In this document: one piece after another, positions 8,243-30,451 of the stretch
Position numbering within the stretch: the stretch's first letter is position 1
How the letters are laid out: every line of letters starts with the position of its first letter
NCBI GenBank assembly: GCA_017882165.1
Contig: JADGPZ010000016.1
Coordinates: forward strand, 1-33,635
Length of the DNA: 33,635 bases
Direction: 5' to 3'
Source: Candidatus Kapaibacterium sp.
GTDB taxonomy: Bacteria > Bacteroidota > Ignavibacteria > Palsa-1295
Translations under genes and position numbers: made by a program
Notes under the pieces: model-generated
What the model was told of the DNA's origin: nothing
Databases searched by the model: none
Seen by the model: only the letters and a program-made list of their open reading frames with translations

Positions 8243-8333
8243 GTAGTGGCCGGGTTTCCCGGCCCGGATCGCCCGAGATCTGGCATGGCAGGAACGCCCG
8301 CTGCGGCGGGTGGAGTGCAACTCCACTGTACAC
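8243..8333. repeat. GTAGTGGC-type palindromic element, copy A
   Basis: It starts gtagtggccgggtttcccgg, a hairpin, continues through further small palindromes (cgcccgctgcggcgggtg and gtggagtgcaactccac), and ends near ccactgtaca. It is related to the perfect element at 16709-16796 and the simpler one at 29847-29870. Confidence 0.5.
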
Positions 8334-8506
8334 GACGGAAAGACCCGAACATCCGCTCCTTCCTCGGCCCCCTCCCGATCCCCCGCCAGCCCCCGCGTTT
8401 CGGAAGTGGTGTGAAGTTGTTGGAAGGTGTGAGGCGCGGGAAAAGAGATCCGGGTGAATACATTGGCCGTGCTTGTCGTTGGAGTAAGCAGTATCGAGAC
8501 TTCAAA

Positions 8507-11500
8507 ATGTCCTCCCCGAGATTCCTGATCCAATCGTTCCGAATTAGCGCGCTCGTCATCGTGTCGGTTGCGGCTCTCACCCGTGCTTCCGTTGCGCAGC
8601 CATTCACGTGGCATTACATGGGGAATGCAGGTGCCACCTGCGGATACTTTTGGAACGCGCGGACTGGAGTAACAGGCGTCAGCACACGCTTCCTCTATAC
8701 GCGGGACGGTCGAACGTGGCGCACTGGAACCGCGCTTCCTGGTAATCTGAATGTCAGTTCGATTCGATGCTTCGATGGCAAGACCCTTTACGCAGCGGCG
8801 ATGGACGACCTCAACAATTGTGAAGCCTGGAAGTCAACCGACTCTGGTGTTTCCTGGAGCTTTGTGTTAAGTCAGCCGTTGGGGATCAATCCAAATGGAT
8901 GGGAAGGGGCCGATGTCTATTGGGACTACAAGGCCAACGCTCCGGCACTCCGGGGTACGACCGTTGTGAGTTTGGATTCGAATCACTTGTTCAACACTCA
9001 AGGAGATTGGGCGGCATACCGGTCCATGGACGGCGGCATTTCGTGGAAGAGCTGTGGGAGTTCTGTTGCGGGATTTAGTGCTTATGCCGACACCATCAAC
9101 AAACTGTATTATTCAAGTCAGGAGACCAACGATATTCTAACTTCTGCCGATAGTGGAAAGACATGGAACAGCTTGCCCAAGATGCCGCCCGTAGCGTGGA
9201 TGGATGGTATAGAAGGTTGCGGCGAAAAAATCTTTGTTCGAACTGGTGTCGGACTATACGGGAGCATAGACCGCGGGACGACATGGGATAGCATCGGAGG
9301 TCCGAAAACTCGATTTCAAGAAGCTAAACGGTTTAATATCATTGGCTGCAATTGTTCCACGGTGATTGCTCCGGATGACACCGGTGCTCTTTGGATTGCG
9401 AACCCGGAGGATGCAACTCCGCCACCAAGTCTCCACTCCACATTCTCCACAAACGCTTTCGAATGCGACACCTCCAAAATCCTGGTCAAGATCGACTCTT
9501 CATTCCTGCCCGGGCGATTTCGTCTCACCATCACGAACGATTCGGATGGCAACTTTTCCATTGTCGGACCGGACACAGTTCTTGGCAACTCCGCAGGTTC
9601 AAGCATTCTCGTTAACTTCCTGAGTCACGATCTTCGAACGCATCATGCAACAATCACGATCGTCTCGCTCGATTATGGCCAGTGCATGTCCGAGAGCCAT
9701 GCCATTACTGGAATAGCGAGTCTTGCCGCGCCGGTCATTCCTGGAACGTATGTGAGGGTGGGATGCGACACAGCAAAGGGTGCGATAGCGATCCTCAATT
9801 CCAATTGCGATAGTATTCGCCTGACCAGCGCGAGCAATCCGTCGTCCGATTTTTCCCTCCTGCCTTTCGATTCCGTTGTAAGGGCCACTGGCAGCATTCC
9901 GCTCTCATTCTTGCCATTCCTAAAGACGGGCTTGCAAAAATATCCGGTACACCTTACCGGGCACTTCGAGCCTTCGGGTATTCCATTCGATACCGTTATT
10001 TCGGTCACCGCTCAATATGGACATCTCTACTCGAATATTGTTGTGCCGGCATTGACGTTCGATTTCGGAACACTGCCGAACTGCGCCTTCAGCGCCGATA
10101 CGCTGTTCACATTCTGGAATGATGGTTGTGATACGTTGCGAGTGCCCTTGTCTCAGACTCATGGCAAAGAGTGGAGCATTACACCTGCTTCGGATACACT
10201 TACCCTCTACCCCGGTCAGCTCGATACGATTCGCGTTCACTTCGCCACGCTGATACCTGGCTCCTTCACTCAGAATCTTACGTATTCCTACTCCGGCCCG
10301 CACTCTGGCACGCTCCCGATCCACTTGAGCGTGACCGTTGGTCCCGCACATCCTGCCGTTTCTCTTTCGGACACCGCGTTCGATCTCGGCAACCGCTCCT
10401 TCTGCGCGAATGATACCATCGTCAGCGTGTGGGTGCATAACGCCGGATGCGATAGTGTGCTTTGCAGCTCGCTGCGTATGACAGGAAGCAATGCGTTTAC
10501 CATTCTGAACTCTCGTGACACTGCACTCGCGCCGGGCGATTCTATTCAACGAAGAATCGCTGTGCATCCGAGGCAGAAAGGTCCCACGCACGGAGAATTC
10601 ATCATACACCTGAGCCGGACAGATGGGAGCATGTCACACGACACACTCATACCGCTCTCGGTCAACGTCGTCCGTGGCACCGCTTTGCTCGCGTGCAAAA
10701 CATCCGCCCTGGATCTCGGCACAACGCCCATCTGTCAGGAGCGCGACACATTCGTCGTGATTCAGAACACGGGTTGCGACACGGTGTGCGATTCATCGGT
10801 GGCACTTTCTGCGGCGACGTTCCAACTGGCGAAGCCGTGGAGCGCGCGCTGCCTCGCGCCGGGCGAGCGGGATACGGTGTGGCTCTCCACCGCTATGGAC
10901 ACCAATGGACATCATGGACAGAATGTTGCAACACTAACAATCGCCTCGAACGCTGACACCGCGCTGCCGCCGATCATGCTTGCGCGGGAGATTCAGTATC
11001 CGGTAGCGTGGCAACTTACCCTCAGCGCGCCGGACAGCGCCTATCCCGGCCAGCCTGTCACCTACAAGCTGTTACAGCACGGCACGCTGCCTGCCGATGA
11101 CACCGCGATCGACTTCGTGCTGCACTACGACGACGATCTTCTCCAATTCCTAAGCGCAGACGAACCCTTCGCGCGTGGCGCAGGCTTCCAGCCTGCGCTG
11201 CATGGGATGCCGATGCATATCGCGCCCGTGCCTGCGGACTCAGTCCTCGCCACATTGCATTTCACGACATTCCTCGCACCGAATCAGCACACAACGATCT
11301 CGGTCGACGGCATCAACTTCTCCTCCAGTCTGGCGCGGCCATCGGACTGCATCGCGCTGGCGCAAGTGGATACGGGCGGGTTCTCGATCCGCACCCTCTG
11401 CGGCGCAACCGAACTCTCGAAAGAGTTGAACGGTCTCCCACTCACGCTGGACGCCGTCGTGCCGAATCCATCGCATAACGAAGTGACGCTTTATTATTCG

Positions 11501-12455: not shown

Positions 12456-12974
12456 CTACCAATTCGAGATCACCGCGATCATGATTTGCTCGGCGACCTG
12501 GTCTTCGGCATCGTGGAGGGCTTTCTTCTGTCCGGCCAGACTTTGGGCGAGTTGGTAATTCGCGGTCTGCGTAAAATCGCGCTCCCAAAACAGCTTTTGT
12601 TTTTTCTGATCGCGATAGATCGCGTGGACGCGGAGTGTGACGCGCTTATCCTTGACCATCTCGCCCGTGCTCACGCCAACCGGCTCATCAATGATGCCGC
12701 TGGCCGGTATGGATGTTTCGAGCAGTGCGTCGGAATTCGCGCGGTTCGCAACGCGGAGCGAGCCTTCGTTCGTGAATTTCTGAATCAGCAGATCGCTCAG
12801 GTTCTGTCGCACTTCCGACTGTCCGAAGCCTGAGTTATCCTCGACGCCCGGAATCCCGATGGTGTGAATATGTGGCGGAATGCTGGAGCCGGTGAAGCTG
12901 TAACAACTTCCAAGCAACGCCGAGAGAAGGATGAGGGATGAAGGATGAAGGATGAAATGAAAAGAGCCTCTCAT
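12456..12974 (-). CDS. lptE: LptE-like LPS-assembly lipoprotein
   Basis: The 172-residue protein starts at ATG 12974; an upstream frame to 13043 crosses a repeat and is rejected. Residues 5-24 form a signal peptide ending in lipobox LGSC (Cys24). The mature sequence begins CYSFTG and continues with PPHIHTIGIP and DNSGFG, the pattern seen in Bacteroidota LptE. LptE sits in the outer membrane with LptD and helps insert lipopolysaccharide. The gene follows a sigma-54 regulator on the same strand, an arrangement I recall as common in Bacteroidota. Residues 6-16 are encoded by one arm of a 31-bp inverted short-tandem repeat, so the repeat provides the hydrophobic core of the signal peptide. Confidence 0.82.
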   Translation of the reverse strand: MRGSFHFILHPSSLILLSALLGSCYSFTGSSIPPHIHTIGIPGVEDNSGFGQSEVRQNLSDLLIQKFTNEGSLRVANRANSDALLETSIPASGIIDEPVGVSTGEMVKDKRVTLRVHAIYRDQKKQKLFWERDFTQTANYQLAQSLAGQKKALHDAEDQVAEQIMIAVISNW

Positions 12975-13061
12975 TTTTGAGAAGCGTCGCTCTGCCTCCA
13001 CCTGCTTAGTCAGTAGCTTGTGCGTTCTGTTTTCATCCTTCATCCTTCATCCCTCATCCTT
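12927..13061. repeat. 31-bp perfect inverted pair of GGATGAA tandem repeats
   Basis: Arms at 12927-12957 and 13031-13061 are perfect reverse complements made of GGATGAA/GGATGAG heptamers, with a 73-base spacer. One arm codes for part of the lptE signal peptide; the other ends just before the stop codon (13062) of the sigma-54 regulator gene. A related pair lies at 29349-29425. Confidence 0.85.
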
Positions 13062-14393
<1,332 letters not shown>

Positions 14394-16465: not shown

Positions 16466-16714
16466 ATGTCCCTCCACATCTCCAAAGAGCACGATACCGA
16501 ACTGGCGCGCAAGGCATACGCGGCGGTCGCCGATGTTCCGACCGTCGAAGAGAACGACCGCAATCGTTTAGGTTATCACGTGTGGCTCTATCTTCGCGGC
16601 GAACTCACCACGCTGGAGGAGGCGGTCCACATGTCGCGCTCGCGCTTCAAGCCGAGGACGCTGCCGCAGGAAGAAGTGATTCAGATTATTGAGAAGGCAC
16701 TTGCCACAGTGTAG
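16466..16714 (+). CDS. Small protein of unknown function (82 aa)
   Basis: It starts 3 bases after the aminopeptidase stop, so the two are probably cotranscribed. The sequence is charged and helical-looking with no signal peptide or membrane segment, hence cytoplasmic. The family is not recognised. The stop codon TAG lies inside the left arm of the palindromic element at 16709-16796, so the native C terminus may have been altered by that insertion. Confidence 0.6.
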   Translation: MSLHISKEHDTELARKAYAAVADVPTVEENDRNRLGYHVWLYLRGELTTLEEAVHMSRSRFKPRTLPQEEVIQIIEKALATV

Positions 16715-16796
16715 TGGCGCGGTTTCCGCGCCCGACTGTTCCTATACCTGACGAGTTCAAATTAAGCGAAGAGGCGCGGAAACCGCGCCACTACAC
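16709..16796. repeat. Perfect 24-bp inverted-repeat element, GTAGTGGC family
   Basis: Arms at 16709-16732 and 16773-16796 are exact reverse complements. Each arm is itself a hairpin (ggcgcgg ttt ccgcgcc). The 40-base spacer has no gene. Each arm carries a TAG that ends the neighbouring gene: the 82-aa ORF on the plus strand and meaB on the minus strand. Nested palindromes suggest a REP/BIME- or MITE-like mobile element. Confidence 0.85.
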
Positions 16797-17732
16797 CTTC
16801 GTCAGCTCTCTTGCCACATCGAAGCTCGTCGTCTCATGCGCTGAGATGCGGATGAGTTCTCGTTCGAGTATTGCCGATCGCTCCGCAGTCCAGAAATCGG
16901 TGTGCAGCATGATTTCGACAAGCTCGTGAACGCGCTCGCGCTCGCGCTCGATGCGCCGCAAAGCGAGTTTGCCGGTCTTCAGTAAATGCGCGCGGTGTTT
17001 CTCGATCTCCGCAAGCACTCGATCGATGCCTTCGTTCTTGCTTGCGGCGGCTTTGATAACCGGCGGAATCCACTCGTCTTCCCGGTGCGTGACGCGGAAG
17101 GTGAGAATCGTCGTGAGCGCGCGAACAGCCTGGTCGGAGCCTTCACGGTCGCTTTTGTTGACGACAAAGAAATCGGCAATCTCCATCAGGCCCGACTTCA
17201 TCGCTTGCACGGCGTCGCCGCTTTCTGGCACAAGAACAACCACGGTCGTGTCCGCCGCCTTTGCAATGTCCAGTTCGGATTGTCCGACACCAACGGTTTC
17301 GAAGAGGACGAAATCAAACCCGGCGGCATCGAGCACATCGGCAGCATCTTTGGCTTTTGCAGAAAGTCCGCCGAGTGAACCGCGTGTGGCCATCGAGCGC
17401 ACATAGACGCCCGGATCCATCGAAACCTCCTGCATTCGTATCCGATCGCCGAGAAGCGCGCCGCCCGTGAATGGCGAAGTGGGATCAACGGCAAGTATCC
17501 CGACCGTCTTGCCTTGCGTGCGAAGAAGCTTCGTGAGTTCTGATGTGATCGTGGATTTCCCGGCACCGGGCGGACCGGTGATGCCGACGCGATAGGCGTG
17601 ACCTAATTTCGGGGCCAACTCACGAAGCAGCGCGCCAGCGTCTTCGCGGTCATTTTCGACACGCGAAATGGCGCGGGCAACAGCAAGGCGGTCATGCGTC
17701 GAAAGGCGCCGGGCGAGTTCGGATGAAGTCAT
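16791..17732 (-). CDS. meaB: MeaB/ArgK-family GTPase (methylmalonyl-CoA mutase chaperone)
   Basis: The protein has 313 residues from ATG 17732; an in-frame GTG at 17747 is an alternative. The P-loop GPPGAGKST lies at about 53-61 and is followed by the family-specific AVDPTSPFTGGALLGDRIRM. LFETVGVGQSE and the NKSD guanine-specificity motif are also present. MeaB proteins use GTP to load and protect the B12 cofactor of methylmalonyl-CoA mutase, so the organism probably has that enzyme elsewhere, although no mutase gene is in this window. The stop codon TAG lies within the palindrome at 16709-16796. It is downstream of the GNAT gene on the same strand, 118 bases away. Confidence 0.92.
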   Translation of the reverse strand: MTSSELARRLSTHDRLAVARAISRVENDREDAGALLRELAPKLGHAYRVGITGPPGAGKSTITSELTKLLRTQGKTVGILAVDPTSPFTGGALLGDRIRMQEVSMDPGVYVRSMATRGSLGGLSAKAKDAADVLDAAGFDFVLFETVGVGQSELDIAKAADTTVVVLVPESGDAVQAMKSGLMEIADFFVVNKSDREGSDQAVRALTTILTFRVTHREDEWIPPVIKAAASKNEGIDRVLAEIEKHRAHLLKTGKLALRRIERERERVHELVEIMLHTDFWTAERSAILERELIRISAHETTSFDVARELTKV

Positions 17733-17799
17733 GCGGGAGGCAAACACCTGTCGCAGCCCGGAGGTGCGATATTAATCTGCTTCTCAGTCTCATGAACCG

Positions 17800-17850: not shown

Positions 17851-18984
17851 TCAGCCTAGCATCTTCTTATACACCCGGTACGTCTTGTACTTCACTCCGT
17901 TCATCATCTGGGCGGCGCGGTTCATCGGTGCGTTGCTTTCCTGCACCCAGGAGGCTTCGCCAAACTTGTAGCCCTTGCGCTTGGCGGCTTCCATCGTTTC
18001 GCTAAAGAGCAACGCGTCGACGCCGCGATTGCGATACTCCTTCAGAACACCGAGGACGATAATGCGGACCGTATCAATCGCCTTCTTCTTTGTGAACAGA
18101 TTCCACAACGCAATTGGCAGATTGAAAAAGCCGCGCGGGATCCGTGGTCCCGCATGGAACGCTTGATTGACATCCGGCAACGACAGCGCGAATCCGACTG
18201 GCTTGCCATCCACCTCTGCGAAAAAGATCAACTCGGGATCGTAAATCGGCTTGAGGTCTTTGGCGAGGAAATCGAACTCCGCGTCCGTCATTGGGAAGAA
18301 GCCCCGGTTCTCCCAGGCGGTATTGTAGATATGTTTGACAAGCGCCAGTTCTTCGTTGAATCGCTTTGGATTCATCGGCCGGATGGTGATCTTGTTCCGC
18401 TCGCGCATCGCGCTGGCAACGCGCATGAGTTTATCGCTTCGTGCAGTTTCCTGTGATAGTAGCCACGCGTAGAGATCGTGATCTTTTGCATATCCGTTCT
18501 GCTCTAACAGCGATGCGTAATAGGGCGGATTGTAGGTCAGCAGCAGCACGGGTGGCCGGTTGAAGCCCTCGATCAGCAGACCATATTCATCATTCGACGA
18601 GGGATTCGCCGGACCATACACGACCTTCATCCCATTCTCGCGCAAGTAGTGCTCGGCGGCCTCGAACAGCGCGTGGGCAACATCGGGATCATCGACCGAT
18701 TCGAAGAATCCGAAAAAGCCAGCTTGCTCGTGTTGTGCGGCAATGTAGTTGTCGTTAATTGAGGCGGCAATACGGCCCACGATCGTGCCGTCGCGCTCGG
18801 CGACCCAGAAGCGAATCTTAGTATGTTGATAGAAGGGATTCTTCGTTGTGTCGATCAACTTCATCCGGTCCATCTCCATCGGCGGGACCCAGTTCGGATC
18901 GTCGCCATAGATATCCCACATCATGCGGACGAACTTCAGTTTGTCCGCTTTCGAGGTTACTTCCCGGACGCTGACGTTACTCAT
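17851..18984 (-). CDS. GNAT-fold N-acyltransferase, paralogue of the fusion's C-terminal domain
   Basis: The 377-residue protein aligns by eye along its length with residues from about 425 onward of the synthase fusion at 19692-22133. Shared landmarks are KNPFY, VGRIAA, NPS/SPS-x-NDE-GLL, and the C-terminal RAAQ-MNG-Y-YRVY. It has no signal peptide. I recall that the bacterial ceramide synthase of Caulobacter is a GNAT-like protein; this family may be related, so N-acylation of a long-chain base is a reasonable hypothesis but not proven. The start ATG (18984) overlaps the upstream gene's TAA by one base (TAATG), so translation is coupled. It is the last gene of the three-gene operon. Confidence 0.8.
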   Translation of the reverse strand: MSNVSVREVTSKADKLKFVRMMWDIYGDDPNWVPPMEMDRMKLIDTTKNPFYQHTKIRFWVAERDGTIVGRIAASINDNYIAAQHEQAGFFGFFESVDDPDVAHALFEAAEHYLRENGMKVVYGPANPSSNDEYGLLIEGFNRPPVLLLTYNPPYYASLLEQNGYAKDHDLYAWLLSQETARSDKLMRVASAMRERNKITIRPMNPKRFNEELALVKHIYNTAWENRGFFPMTDAEFDFLAKDLKPIYDPELIFFAEVDGKPVGFALSLPDVNQAFHAGPRIPRGFFNLPIALWNLFTKKKAIDTVRIIVLGVLKEYRNRGVDALLFSETMEAAKRKGYKFGEASWVQESNAPMNRAAQMMNGVKYKTYRVYKKMLG

Positions 18985-19691: not shown

Positions 19692-22133
19692 TTAGACTGG
19701 TCCTCGTTCTTCCCCTTGATAGAGCGGCTTCTCATACACGCGATACCGCTTGTACGGCTCGCCGTTCATCACCTGTGCGGCGCGGGACATCATCGCGTTG
19801 TCCTCGAGCACCCATGAGGCTTCGCCGAACTTGATGCCCTTCTTGCTGGATCGCTCGAGGATTTCGCGGTACATCATCGCATCGACGGCGCGGCCACGAT
19901 ACTCCGGCATGACGCCGAGCAAGATAATGCGCAGCGTGTCGATCGACTTCTTTTTCGTCATGAGATTGGAGATCGCCGTCGGCAAGTTCATCGCTCCCTT
20001 CGGGATTGGCTTACCGGCGAGGAACGCCTGATTGATGTCAGGCACGCAAAGCGAGAAGCCGATGGTCTGCGGTTTGCCGTCCACGCCGGGTACTTCGGCA
20101 AAGAGGACGAAGTCAGGATCGATGATCTGCTTGAGTTCGCCGGCGAGCATCGTGATCTCGTCTTGCGTCAGCGGCACGGCGCCCCAGTTCTCTTCCCAGC
20201 CACGGCCATAGAGATCGCGAATCAGATTCACTTCCTCATCGTACTTCTTCATGTCGAGCGCACGCAGACGCACCTTCGATCGCTCGCGCAGCATGGTTGT
20301 GACACGCTCGATCTTCGGCGAGAGTCCGATGCTCTGCGTAATGCGCCACGCCAGAAGGTCCTTCGCCTTCTTGTATCCGGCGGCATTCCAGAGCTTCTGA
20401 TAATACTCGTGATGATACGGCATCATGACGCACGGCGGAAACTCGAAGCCATCGACGAGCAAGCCAACTTCATCATTGATCGATGGACTGATCGGCCCGC
20501 GCACTTCCGTCATGCCATGCGATCGGAGGAAATCCTCTGCTGCACCGAAGAGCGCATTCGCAACGTGCTGATCGTTGATCGAGTCGTAGAATCCGACAAA
20601 TCCGATCTTGTCATCATAGATCTCGTTGTGGCTGTGGTTGATGATCGCGGCGATGCGGCCCACGGTTCGGCCAGACTCATCTTCGGCAAGGAAAAGCTGT
20701 GCTGTCGCGTGCTTGTAGAACGGATTCTTTATTTCGTCAATGAGCCGCATGCGGTCCATTTCGAGCGGCGGTACCCAGTTCTTCTCATTCTCATACAGCG
20801 CCCACGGCAGCCGGATGAAGCGGAGCTTGTCCTTGCGACCGGCCACTTTGTGGATTTTGATCGCGTGGCGAGTGCCGACCCCGGCACTCGCGCCGGTGCC
20901 GAGGGCGGCACCGGCCACGCGAGTTTGCTCCACTTCTTCCTCATCCAGAACTCCCAGCTCTTCGCCGATCTCCTTGAAGAGTTCGAGAATTCGGTCCAGA
21001 TGTTCCTTCTCATGCGTGGCCATGAAGCTCGTGCGCATCATCTGCAGACCAGGCATTACGCCCGGCGAGATAAAGGCATTCACGAACACGCCGGCATCGA
21101 ACAACTTGCGCCAGAAGACGAACGTCTTGAAATCATCGCCGATGATGACCGGCACAATCCCGGTCTTCGACTCCATGATCTTGAAGCCCAGCGCCTTGAA
21201 CCCGCTCCGCATATAGTCCGCATTATCGATGAGGCGTTGAATGCGCTCGGGCTCGGCGCGAAGAATCTTCAGCGATTCGAGTGCCGCCGCGACGGACGCC
21301 GGTGTTGGACTCGCCGAGAAAATCAGTGCTTGCGAATTGTGCTTGATATAGTTGATCACGCGCTCCTCGCCAACGACAAATCCGCCCAGACTCGCAAACG
21401 TCTTCGAGAACGTCCCCATCGTCATGTCGGTCTCTTTGACGAGATTGAAGTAGCTCGCCGTGCCGCGGCCACCCTCGCCGATGACGCCGACGGCATGCGC
21501 ATCGTCCACCATGACGCGCGCATTGTAGAGTCCTGCGATCTCGATCATGCGCGGCAGATCGACAATCTCGCCCGACGTCGAGAAGACGCCATCGCTCACG
21601 ATGAGCTTCGGTGCGTCCACCGGCAACTTCGAAATGCGCCGCTCCATGTCGGCCATGTCGTTGTGGTTGTAGCGGACGACTTCGCCGTACATCCCTTTCG
21701 ACATCAAATTTCCCGCGACGATGCAGGCGTGATTGTCCTTATCGCTAATGACATACTCGCCACGTTGGCAAAGCGTCGGGATCACACCTTGTGCCGTCTG
21801 GTAGCCGGTCGAGAACAGCAGACAGGCTTCCTTTTGGAAGTAGTCGGCCATTTCGGCCTCCAGCTCTTCGTGCAGCCGGACCGTCCCGGTCAGATACCGA
21901 GAGCCGGAGCAGCCGGTGCCGTAACGCTCGATGGCATGGATCGCCGCTTCCTTGACGCGCGGATCGGCGGTCAGCCCGAGGTAATTGTTCGAGCCGGCCA
22001 TGATGACCTTCCGGCCTTCGATCTGCACGACCGGGCCTTCGTTCTCCTCGATCGCGCGAAAGTACGGGTAATATCCGGCTTCCTTGACCTCATCGGCCCG
22101 CGTGAAGTCGTAACACTTTTGAAATAGGTCCAC
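19692..22133 (-). CDS. Fusion: alpha-oxoamine synthase (serine palmitoyltransferase-like) with GNAT N-acyltransferase
   Basis: From GTG 22133 the protein has 813 residues. The frame reaches ATG 22202, but that ATG lies inside a dispersed repeat, so the GTG giving [10 protein letters not shown] is preferred. Residues about 15-395 are a PLP-dependent alpha-oxoamine synthase: [26 protein letters not shown] (His213) and the PLP lysine in [12 protein letters not shown] (Lys244). Text such as GSNNYLGL and YGTGC-GSR resembles Bacteroides-type serine palmitoyltransferase more than KBL or BioF. Residues 404-424 are a repeat-encoded linker. Residues 425-813 are a GNAT domain paralogous to the gene at 17851. 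The product is probably cytoplasmic and could condense serine with an acyl thioester and then N-acylate the 3-keto base. BioF- or KBL-like chemistry is the alternative. Confidence 0.85.
20862..20924 (-). repeat. In-frame palindromic element forming the fusion linker
   Basis: The 63-base element (21 codons) has short terminal inverted repeats (cgcgtggc / gccacgcg) and two inner hairpins (gagtgccg/cggcactc and cggtgcc/ggcaccg). It encodes a Gly/Ala/Thr-rich stretch containing GVGTRHA between the synthase and GNAT domains. Confidence 0.75.
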
Positions 22134-23220: not shown

Positions 23221-23300
23221 CCTGCCCTTGATCTGATCGGGTGCGGAGTCGAAGTTCTGGCAATTCCGGGGTCTGGATTCCCGCTTTCGCGGGAATGACA
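23221..23300. repeat. Dispersed GTCATTCCCGCG repeat, copy 3 (inverted)
   Basis: On the plus strand it ends ggattcccgctttcgcggga followed by atgaca, the reverse complement of the family start. The left part carries ctgcccttgatctgatcggg, as in copy 2. Confidence 0.75.
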
Positions 23301-23315
23301 AATCAGAGCTTCAGC

Positions 23316-26207: not shown

Positions 26208-26287
26208 TGTCATTCCCGCGAAAGCGGGAATCTAGGTTCAGTTACTGCGCACTTGGGGTCTGGATCCCCGCTTTCGCGGGGATGACA
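26208..26287. repeat. Dispersed GTCATTCCCGCG repeat, copy 4 (nearly complete double palindrome)
   Basis: Two hairpins, cattcccgcgaaagcgggaat at the left and atccccgctttcgcggggat at the right, are arranged as an inverted pair starting gtcatt and ending atgaca. It lies between convergent genes and could act as a bidirectional terminator. Confidence 0.8.
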
Positions 26288-26296
26288 AGCATCCTC

Positions 26297-27892: not shown

Positions 27893-27911
27893 TGTCAAAG
27901 CAAAAAAGTAC

Positions 27912-28012
27912 GGGACCAAGCTTACCACGTCACACTCGTACAATCGCTGAGAGCTGCTTCCTTCCGGACCTGACTCGGTTGGGCGCGTTCGAATTGCGTG
28001 GGACTCGGTCCC
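27912..28012 (-). ncRNA. ffs: Signal recognition particle RNA (4.5S type)
   Basis: The minus strand holds the near-invariant SRP RNA core cggaaggaagcagc preceded by gtcaggtc, which forms the Ffh-binding tetraloop region. The ends pair: gggaccgag at the 5' end (28012-28004) with cttggtccc at the 3' end (27920-27912), giving a rod of about 101 nt without an Alu domain, the small bacterial form. A T-run (tttttt, 27902-27907) follows at once and makes an intrinsic terminator. The RNA binds Ffh and targets nascent membrane proteins. The exact ends are by pairing, not experiment. Confidence 0.9.
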
Positions 28013-29341: not shown

Positions 29342-29836
29342 TTATGATAAGGATGAAGGATGAGGGATGAAGGATGAAAGAGGTCCATTCTTACCTTCAT
29401 CCTTCATCCTTCCGCCCTCATCCCTGTTGCCTCGGTACTCGGCGAAATTATTATCACTCTCTGCAATGCGCACTGAGTGCAAATGGCCGTTCGTGATGTG
29501 CGGCTCGAGCAACTCCCAAACCTTGAGGGCGATATTCTCCGCAGTGGGGATGACGCCGTCGAGTTCCGGCACGTCGTAGTTCAAATGCTTGTGATCGAAC
29601 TTGTCAATCACATGCTCATCCATCACATTTGCAAGGCGCTTGAGATCGATCACGTAGCCGGTGTCCGGGTCCGGCTCGCCGGCGACTGTTACTTCGACGA
29701 TGTAGTTATGCCCATGCCCGTGCGGGTTGTTGCACTTGTCGAAGACGCGCTGGTTCTCGGCATCGCTGAACTTCGGGTTGAAGAGCCGGTGCGCCGCCGA
29801 GAAATGGGCTTTGCGGGTCACATAGAGCATATTCAT
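29342..29836 (-). CDS. queD: 6-pyruvoyl-tetrahydropterin/6-carboxytetrahydropterin synthase
   Basis: The 164-residue protein is a QueD/PTPS-family enzyme acting on the product of FolE. Zinc histidines are His16 (HFSAAH) and the HGH pair (41, 43) in [11 protein letters not shown]; Cys35 is the catalytic cysteine. The motif [12 protein letters not shown] supports the family. Residues 138-164 are encoded by a GGATGAA short-tandem repeat pair and do not resemble the family; normal members end near residue 135. It could lead to queuosine or a reduced pterin; no queC or queE is nearby. The downstream neighbour folE is 5 bases away. Confidence 0.92.
29349..29425. repeat. Inverted GGATGAA tandem repeat pair in the queD tail
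   Basis: Arms at 29349-29380 and 29394-29425 are imperfect reverse complements made of GGATGAA/GGATGAG heptamers with a short spacer. They code for the C-terminal 27 residues of queD. Same family as 12927-13061. Confidence 0.75.
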
Positions 29837-29846
29837 GAAACGTGTG

Positions 29847-29870
29847 GCCCCGGGAGTATACTCCCGGGGC
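29847..29870. repeat. 24-base perfect palindrome, probable GTAG-family element
   Basis: The sequence from 29847 to 29870 is its own reverse complement (gccccgggagta and its mirror). The base at 29870 is also the G of the TAG stop codon of the DUF3501 gene. It may act as a terminator between that gene and queD. Confidence 0.75.
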
Positions 29871-30451
29871 TACTCGCTCAAATCGCGCGCAATCGACGTT
29901 CGCTGCTCGTCCGTCAGCTTCGTAGCGTGCTGATAATTCGGATGCCTCACGACGAGGCTTACTTCACTCTGACCAAGGCGAAGACGCTCGACATCCTGAT
30001 CACTGAGATGCCACCGGACATACTGCACCGCGCTGATGCGGCCTTCCTCCGACTGTTCCTCGTCGAAAATCGTTGGAATCGCTCGCTCGCCGATTACGAG
30101 GAAGATGGCGTCGTGCGTCAGCCCCACGAGCGAATCGAGCGTCGACTTAATCTTCTCCTTATCGGTGATCTCGATGAGCAGTGTGGCCGATAGCTCGCTC
30201 TTCGTCGGCAGGAGCTTGCTGTACGTCTCGATCTCGTGCTGGATGGCTTCGTCATGCACCATCCGCTCGGTGCGGACCATTTCCTGAATCTGGAAGAGCA
30301 CGGTCGCCCGGTTCTCAAAGACGAAGGTCATGAGCGGTCCGACCTGCACGCGCCGGTGCCGCTTCTCTGCAATTACCCGCGTTCGGAATTCCGGGCGGAC
30401 TTTTTCGTACTGGGCGATGTCGAGGATGTCGGTGAGGGTGATGGTTATCAT
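29870..30451 (-). CDS. DUF3501 family protein
   Basis: The 193-residue protein matches the remembered DUF3501 pattern: LTDILDIAQYEKVRPEFR, RHRRVQVGPLMTFVFENR and FQIQEMVRTERM near the start, and the SAVQYVRW segment later. The function is unknown; in other genomes the family is often next to rubrerythrin-like or iron-sulphur oxidoreductase genes. Here it lies between the penicillin-binding protein gene (56 bases upstream) and the pterin genes, so the usual partner is missing. The protein is soluble with no signal peptide. Its TAG stop touches the palindrome at 29847-29870. Confidence 0.82.
   Translation of the reverse strand: MITITLTDILDIAQYEKVRPEFRTRVIAEKRHRRVQVGPLMTFVFENRATVLFQIQEMVRTERMVHDEAIQHEIETYSKLLPTKSELSATLLIEITDKEKIKSTLDSLVGLTHDAIFLVIGERAIPTIFDEEQSEEGRISAVQYVRWHLSDQDVERLRLGQSEVSLVVRHPNYQHATKLTDEQRTSIARDLSE

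Follow-up and report, generated by a model that had tools for sequence, protein, structure and literature searches.

In-frame stop codons at the heads of a REPIN between two convergent genes of Candidatus Kapaibacterium sp.

The whole of the space between a conserved 82-aa open reading frame and meaB in Candidatus Kapaibacterium sp. is occupied by a REPIN/BIME, an inverted pair of GTAG-headed REP hairpins that belongs to a dispersed family, and each of the two convergent genes ends on the TAG of the head that it reads into. At other heads in the genus, genes that reach a GTAG near their end do so in frame much more often than expected. Overall, it is highly likely that this is a dispersed REPIN whose copies survive behind gene 3' ends, where an in-frame TAG acts as a filter, and which has likely replaced an older element at this junction. 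That GTAG termini of REPs often give a TAG stop to flanking ORFs has been known since 2013, as stated by Di Nocera et al. (2013, PMC3733652). What is new here is the measured frame bias, and a sister species that carries another REP family at the same junction.

The element and its family

The window, meaning the whole stretch of DNA analysed, is 33,635 nt long (contig JADGPZ010000016.1, positions 1 to 33,635). The left REP arm (16709-16732, plus strand) and the right, inverted arm (16773-16796, minus strand) are 24 nt each, 100% complementary and 40 nt apart (inverted repeat I8), and enclose a linker at 16733-16772, defined from the sequence and the inverted-repeat call. Both arms open with GTGTAG, which is a GT border followed by the GTAG head (16711-16714 in the left arm), and the right arm is the left arm inverted. 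What the initial annotation missed is that a single arm also forms its own hairpin, GGCGCGG-TTT-CCGCGCC, behind the GTAG head, with one T between head and stem in both arms. The hairpin of one arm has a predicted energy of -12.8 kcal/mol, while for the whole 88 nt the two strands give -53.6 and -58.7 kcal/mol, much lower than shuffled sequences (z = -9.7 and -10.5). An Rfam search returned no family for the element.

The initial annotation had stated that outward-facing TAGs stop both genes, and this can be read directly from the sequence. GTG TAG at 16709-16714 closes the 82-aa ORF (16466-16714, plus strand), with the TAG at 16712-16714, and GTG TAG on the minus strand at 16796-16791 closes meaB (16791-17747, minus strand), with the TAG at 16793-16791. 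The latter gene encodes the methylmalonyl-CoA mutase-associated GTPase (Pfam PF03308, E 1.7e-93), and its relatives put this uncultured bacterium in Bacteroidota, close to Ignavibacteria. The 82-aa ORF has no Pfam match, and is conserved: relatives at 64-86% identity were found in ten genomes of the genus and family, and it is present in every congener searched.

The palindrome had been proposed to be a mobile, dispersed element, and about 40 arms of the same family, many of them paired, bear out its dispersal; this count uses a stricter form of the arm, within the stretches sampled around copies. A pattern search allowing up to 3 mismatches matched 53 sites in this genome; the reversed pattern matched 11. 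The sampled stretches contain 13 inward-facing pairs, with lengths of 27-174 nt, mostly 50-88. The inner stem covaries across the 40 arms, with five pair types (GC/GC 23, GG/CC 8, AC/GT 4, TG/CA 2, CG/CG 1), and is broken in only two of them. One base before hairpins, GTAG is the most over-represented 4-mer (27-fold, in 599 kb of this genome picked for holding copies). The family is also present in three congeners (G001, G003 and G006), with few copies in a fourth (G002), and this genome holds several further families of GTAG or GTGG hairpins. The element thus has what characterizes a REP, namely a hairpin behind GTAG, many dispersed copies, compensatory stem changes and a position near gene 3' ends, and what characterizes a REPIN or BIME, namely inverted REPs with a short spacer in a unit that recurs.

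Several related observations were made. An orthologous REPIN (locus L142, 6304-6378, and locus L252 in G001) has stems that differ between the two species by paired changes, with the GTAG heads kept; the stem forms are GCAGCC/GGCTGC, GCAGGC/GCCTGC and GTACCC/GGGTAC. A lone arm of the window's family with a changed stem, GTAGTGGCCGGGTTTCCCGGCC, is found at window position 8243, upstream of a long gene starting near 8246-8507. Another dispersed palindrome, CTGGATTCCCGCTTTCGCGGGAATGACA, occurs at 23268-23301, 26208-26235 and 26255-26288. The window also contains clustered short repeats of the GATGAAG type, in both orientations and flanking genes (12925-12957, 13031-13063 and 29346-29423), a bacterial small SRP RNA gene (27911-28010, minus strand, Rfam RF00169), and paralogous 3' ends of neighbouring genes (17858-17976 and 19723-19841) with 77% DNA identity, one of which is fused behind an aminotransferase-like part.

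The junction in the sister species

In the sister species G001, whose meaB is 94% identical, the 82-aa ORF and meaB are also adjacent, with a different REPIN between them. Its GTGTAG heads end both genes, and its hairpins belong to a second family, GTAGCGCACGCTTTCGCTTGCGC, for which this genome has 19 matches and G001 has 16. The head on the meaB side stands at the identical codon in the two genomes. The 82-aa ORF and meaB are not neighbours in five other congeners.

The borders of the arms may indicate which family was there first. In the window's family 30 of 40 arms have CT or TT ahead of GTAG (CT in 15), while GT is found before 12 of 16 second-family arms in this genome but only 1 of the window family's other 38 arms (p = 6e-8 between families). 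Both window arms carry GT, which is atypical for their own family. Since this border is typical of the second family, it suggests replacement: on the basis of the compared sequences, the second family probably occupied the junction before the present one, which took its place between the heads in this lineage. The REPIN still present in the sister species would then represent the older state. We regard this as one suggestive case of family replacement.

The main competitor is that the two families inserted independently at one hot-spot junction, with no replacement, and we consider this a real possibility, though not the favoured one. Convergent junctions are generally favoured by REPs, according to the survey of Di Nocera et al. 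(PMC3733652), and about four of the REP junctions of this genome carry a different family in G001 (orf82/meaB, L135_6506, L162_15358 and L159_9340), against about 13 that have no REP there. The identical codon of the meaB-side head in both species argues against it, as do the GT borders, which fit the sister's family and not the window's own. The figure of about 4 in 17 different-family junctions was rejected as proof of a hot spot, because convergent junctions are favoured anyway. No clean empty insertion site was found relative to the sister species, and no empty and filled pair was caught, because the intergenic spacers have fully diverged between the two; the assembly is moreover fragmented, with 249 contigs.

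A similar case is a phosphoglucomutase-like gene: the head that ends it belongs to the window's family here and to GTAGGGACGTGC in G002, and in G002 a head of that element ends the facing gene too. It can be suggested, tentatively and as something we think unlikely, that REPIN families swap at an occupied site with the outer heads and gene stops kept, making such junctions standing slots. If so, slots would pass from family to family, and stop supply would help to keep the slot.

Stop codons at REP heads

Native stops in relatives show what the element has done at this junction. All nine relatives of meaB that lack the element end 2-9 codons further on, at TAA or TGA, and for the 82-aa ORF the gene of three congeners ends 4-10 codons further on, at TAA. 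Because relatives without the element end further on, we take it from the alignments that the element supplies both stops here and trims both proteins.

Gene ends at other heads were called by a home-made codon-usage script rather than by a standard annotator. Among 136 GTAG heads from three genomes (this one, G001 and G003), 15 genes end exactly on the TAG of the head; none ends 1-5 bases before the TAG and none within 60 bases after it. A wider count covered loci from seven genomes of the genus, 199 GTAG heads after removal of duplicates. Here 25 called genes end on the TAG, 29 end 6-30 nt before it, and only 4 run past out of frame and stop within 100 nt, while 11 heads fall within a gene, either out of frame or well away from its end. 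When counted by gene, 65 of the 105 that read towards a head stop between 60 nt upstream and its TAG, and 11 overrun it, 7 of these by more than 100 nt. Because the loci were chosen around copies and transposases, the share of heads that end a gene holds for this sample, though the choice does not affect the comparison of frames. In that comparison 25 of 29 genes are in frame, where one third would be expected (p = 6e-9). Related junctions are not fully independent; with each junction and orthologous pair counted once, the result is 20 of 24 (p = 7e-7). The bias at gene ends anticipated by the initial annotation is therefore seen, as 25 genes in frame against 4 out of frame.

The 62 GTGG heads, which contain no stop, end no gene; two genes read through them in frame and stop 12 bases on. 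At a GTGG-headed copy of the second family (L169 10320, contig C235), the reading frame continues across TGG and closes 12 bases later, at a TAG within the loop of the hairpin that serves as a sort of back-up stop.

The initial annotation had gone further, suggesting that outward-facing stops allow safe insertion at gene ends and so may explain the position of the element. The in-frame bias is in keeping with this at gene ends, but it does not extend to placement in general, as only 25 of 199 heads end genes. As a general cause of position, stop supply is not supported: 29 heads follow an intact native stop at a distance of 6-30 nt, and 11 are inside genes. Since most heads end no gene, it is concluded that stop supply probably filters the sites at which copies persist, and is not the main cause of their placement. 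In the mechanism we propose, most surviving REPINs would be those placed directly downstream of gene 3' ends, in particular those flanked by convergent genes. A copy that falls on the last codons of a gene would persist mostly when its GTAG puts the TAG in frame, since such a gene still has a clean end and loses few residues or none. At the orf82/meaB junction the TAG would have met this filter on both sides.

Alternatively, a REP may land at, or recombine into, a stop codon that already exists, for example a YTG TAG, which contains GTAG. We judge this capture of native stops rather unlikely as the explanation for the junction, where meaB and the ORF are both shorter than in every relative without the element. 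Elsewhere it fits better. In about 4 of 10 other in-frame genes tested, a relative lacking the REP has its native stop at that very codon: L142_1727 (TGA in G006), L143_441 (TAA in G001), L162_15358 (TGA in G001 and G003), and the gene at window 29873, whose G006 relative ends at the same codon with TGA. This last gene (29870-30451) is ended by the minus-strand GTAG of a second REP-like palindrome, GTGGCCCCGGGAGTATACTCCCGGGGCTAC (29844-29873, minus strand), whose other head is GTGG and carries no stop. The phosphoglucomutase-like gene of G003 also ends in TTG TAG with no REP hairpin there, at a stop that carries a REP both in this genome and in G002, from different families. However, captured sites often have TGA or TAA as the native stop rather than TAG, and four other genes (L149_4620, L162_13970, L135_6506 and L164_7864) are 1-5 codons shorter than at least one relative without a REP there. 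As far as can be told from aligned gene ends, supply and capture both occur, so the idea that the palindrome provides the stops is upheld at this locus and, by the initial annotation's own test, refuted at about 4 of the 10 other copies.

A third explanation is that the hairpins are kept by selection as a double stop and bidirectional terminator, ending translation, and perhaps transcription, of both genes. The position between convergent genes, the very stable fold and the presence of another REP family at the same place in the sister species would all suit such a role. In E. coli, REPs no more than 15 nt from a stop codon are reported to lower translation (cited in PMC12306157). We nevertheless think it improbable, given the many copies inside genes or away from gene ends and the many orthologous junctions of the sister species that have no REP. 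The reading as a terminator was rejected, as the T-run is absent: no intrinsic terminator, defined as a G+C-rich hairpin with a T-run, was found on either strand at 16600-16900, and thus the element has neither a U-run nor a terminator-like site. Finally, a chance palindrome or an artefact of the fragmented assembly is practically negligible, in view of the fold z scores, about 40 recurrences of the arm with GTAG head and hairpin intact, the dozens of copies across several congeneric genomes, and the covariation of the stems.

Transposases and known systems

REPs of this kind are generally believed to spread through the action of RAYT/TnpA_REP enzymes on single-stranded DNA. TnpA_REP cleavage requires or favours GTAG, and CT, which stands before 15 of the 40 arms here, is the usual cleavage dinucleotide (PMC8266576). 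Because the TAG lies within a motif needed for cleavage, its presence needs no selection for stopping genes. GTAG would thus be there for the transposase, and the stop codons would be a by-product, which may widen the range of sites at which a copy is tolerated.

The initial annotation had proposed a search for a RAYT-type transposase. RAYT-related genes with REP flanks do exist in the genome: IS200-like or RAYT-like genes with inverted REP flanks are found at three loci (L039, L041 and L044), and REP-flanked Y1-type transposase genes are also numerous across the genus. Two proteins of this genome best fit the NCBIfam IS200/IS605 model and not the RAYT model, and two others score just under the NCBIfam RAYT cut-off. 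The inverted REPs around the Y1 genes have GTAG or GTGG heads and belong to families other than the window's, and the Y1_Tnp genes checked, those of this genome and the majority from six congeners, included no RAYT flanked by the window's family (in a fragmented assembly). The window's family was presumably spread by a RAYT all the same.

The element resembles the REPs described by Di Nocera et al. (2013), which are small GTAG-headed palindromes, often in inverted pairs and mostly downstream of genes or between convergent genes; their conv-REPs, those between convergent genes, are no more than 20 bp from either 3' end. It differs in that the host here belongs to Bacteroidota, a phylum absent from the GTAG hosts in the available text of that paper, which likewise includes no frame test or comparison of native stops; here one pair stops both genes, and the sister species has another family at the junction. 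As in the REPINs that Bertels and Rainey (2011, PMC3116915) describe in Pseudomonas, two inverted REPs with a short spacer form a dispersed unit, although copy number is modest here and no cognate RAYT was found for the window's family. The Y1-type HUH transposase genes with inverted GTAG/GTGG flanks are like the REPtrons of RAYT/TnpA_REP (PMC2817692, PMC8266576), except that the families they carry here are other than the window's. Different REP classes at one orthologous place in related strains have also been reported (PMC3686654), but that place is a RAYT gene, whereas here it is an ordinary gene junction.

What was a one-line remark in the REP literature is now a measured bias, with about 86% of genes in frame against 33%, and this bias offers a simple view of selection on where REPs survive. 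It also warns that annotated C-termini ending at a REP head have often been shortened a little. The junction that holds two families in two sister species is a place to test the replacement of REP families at fixed sites.
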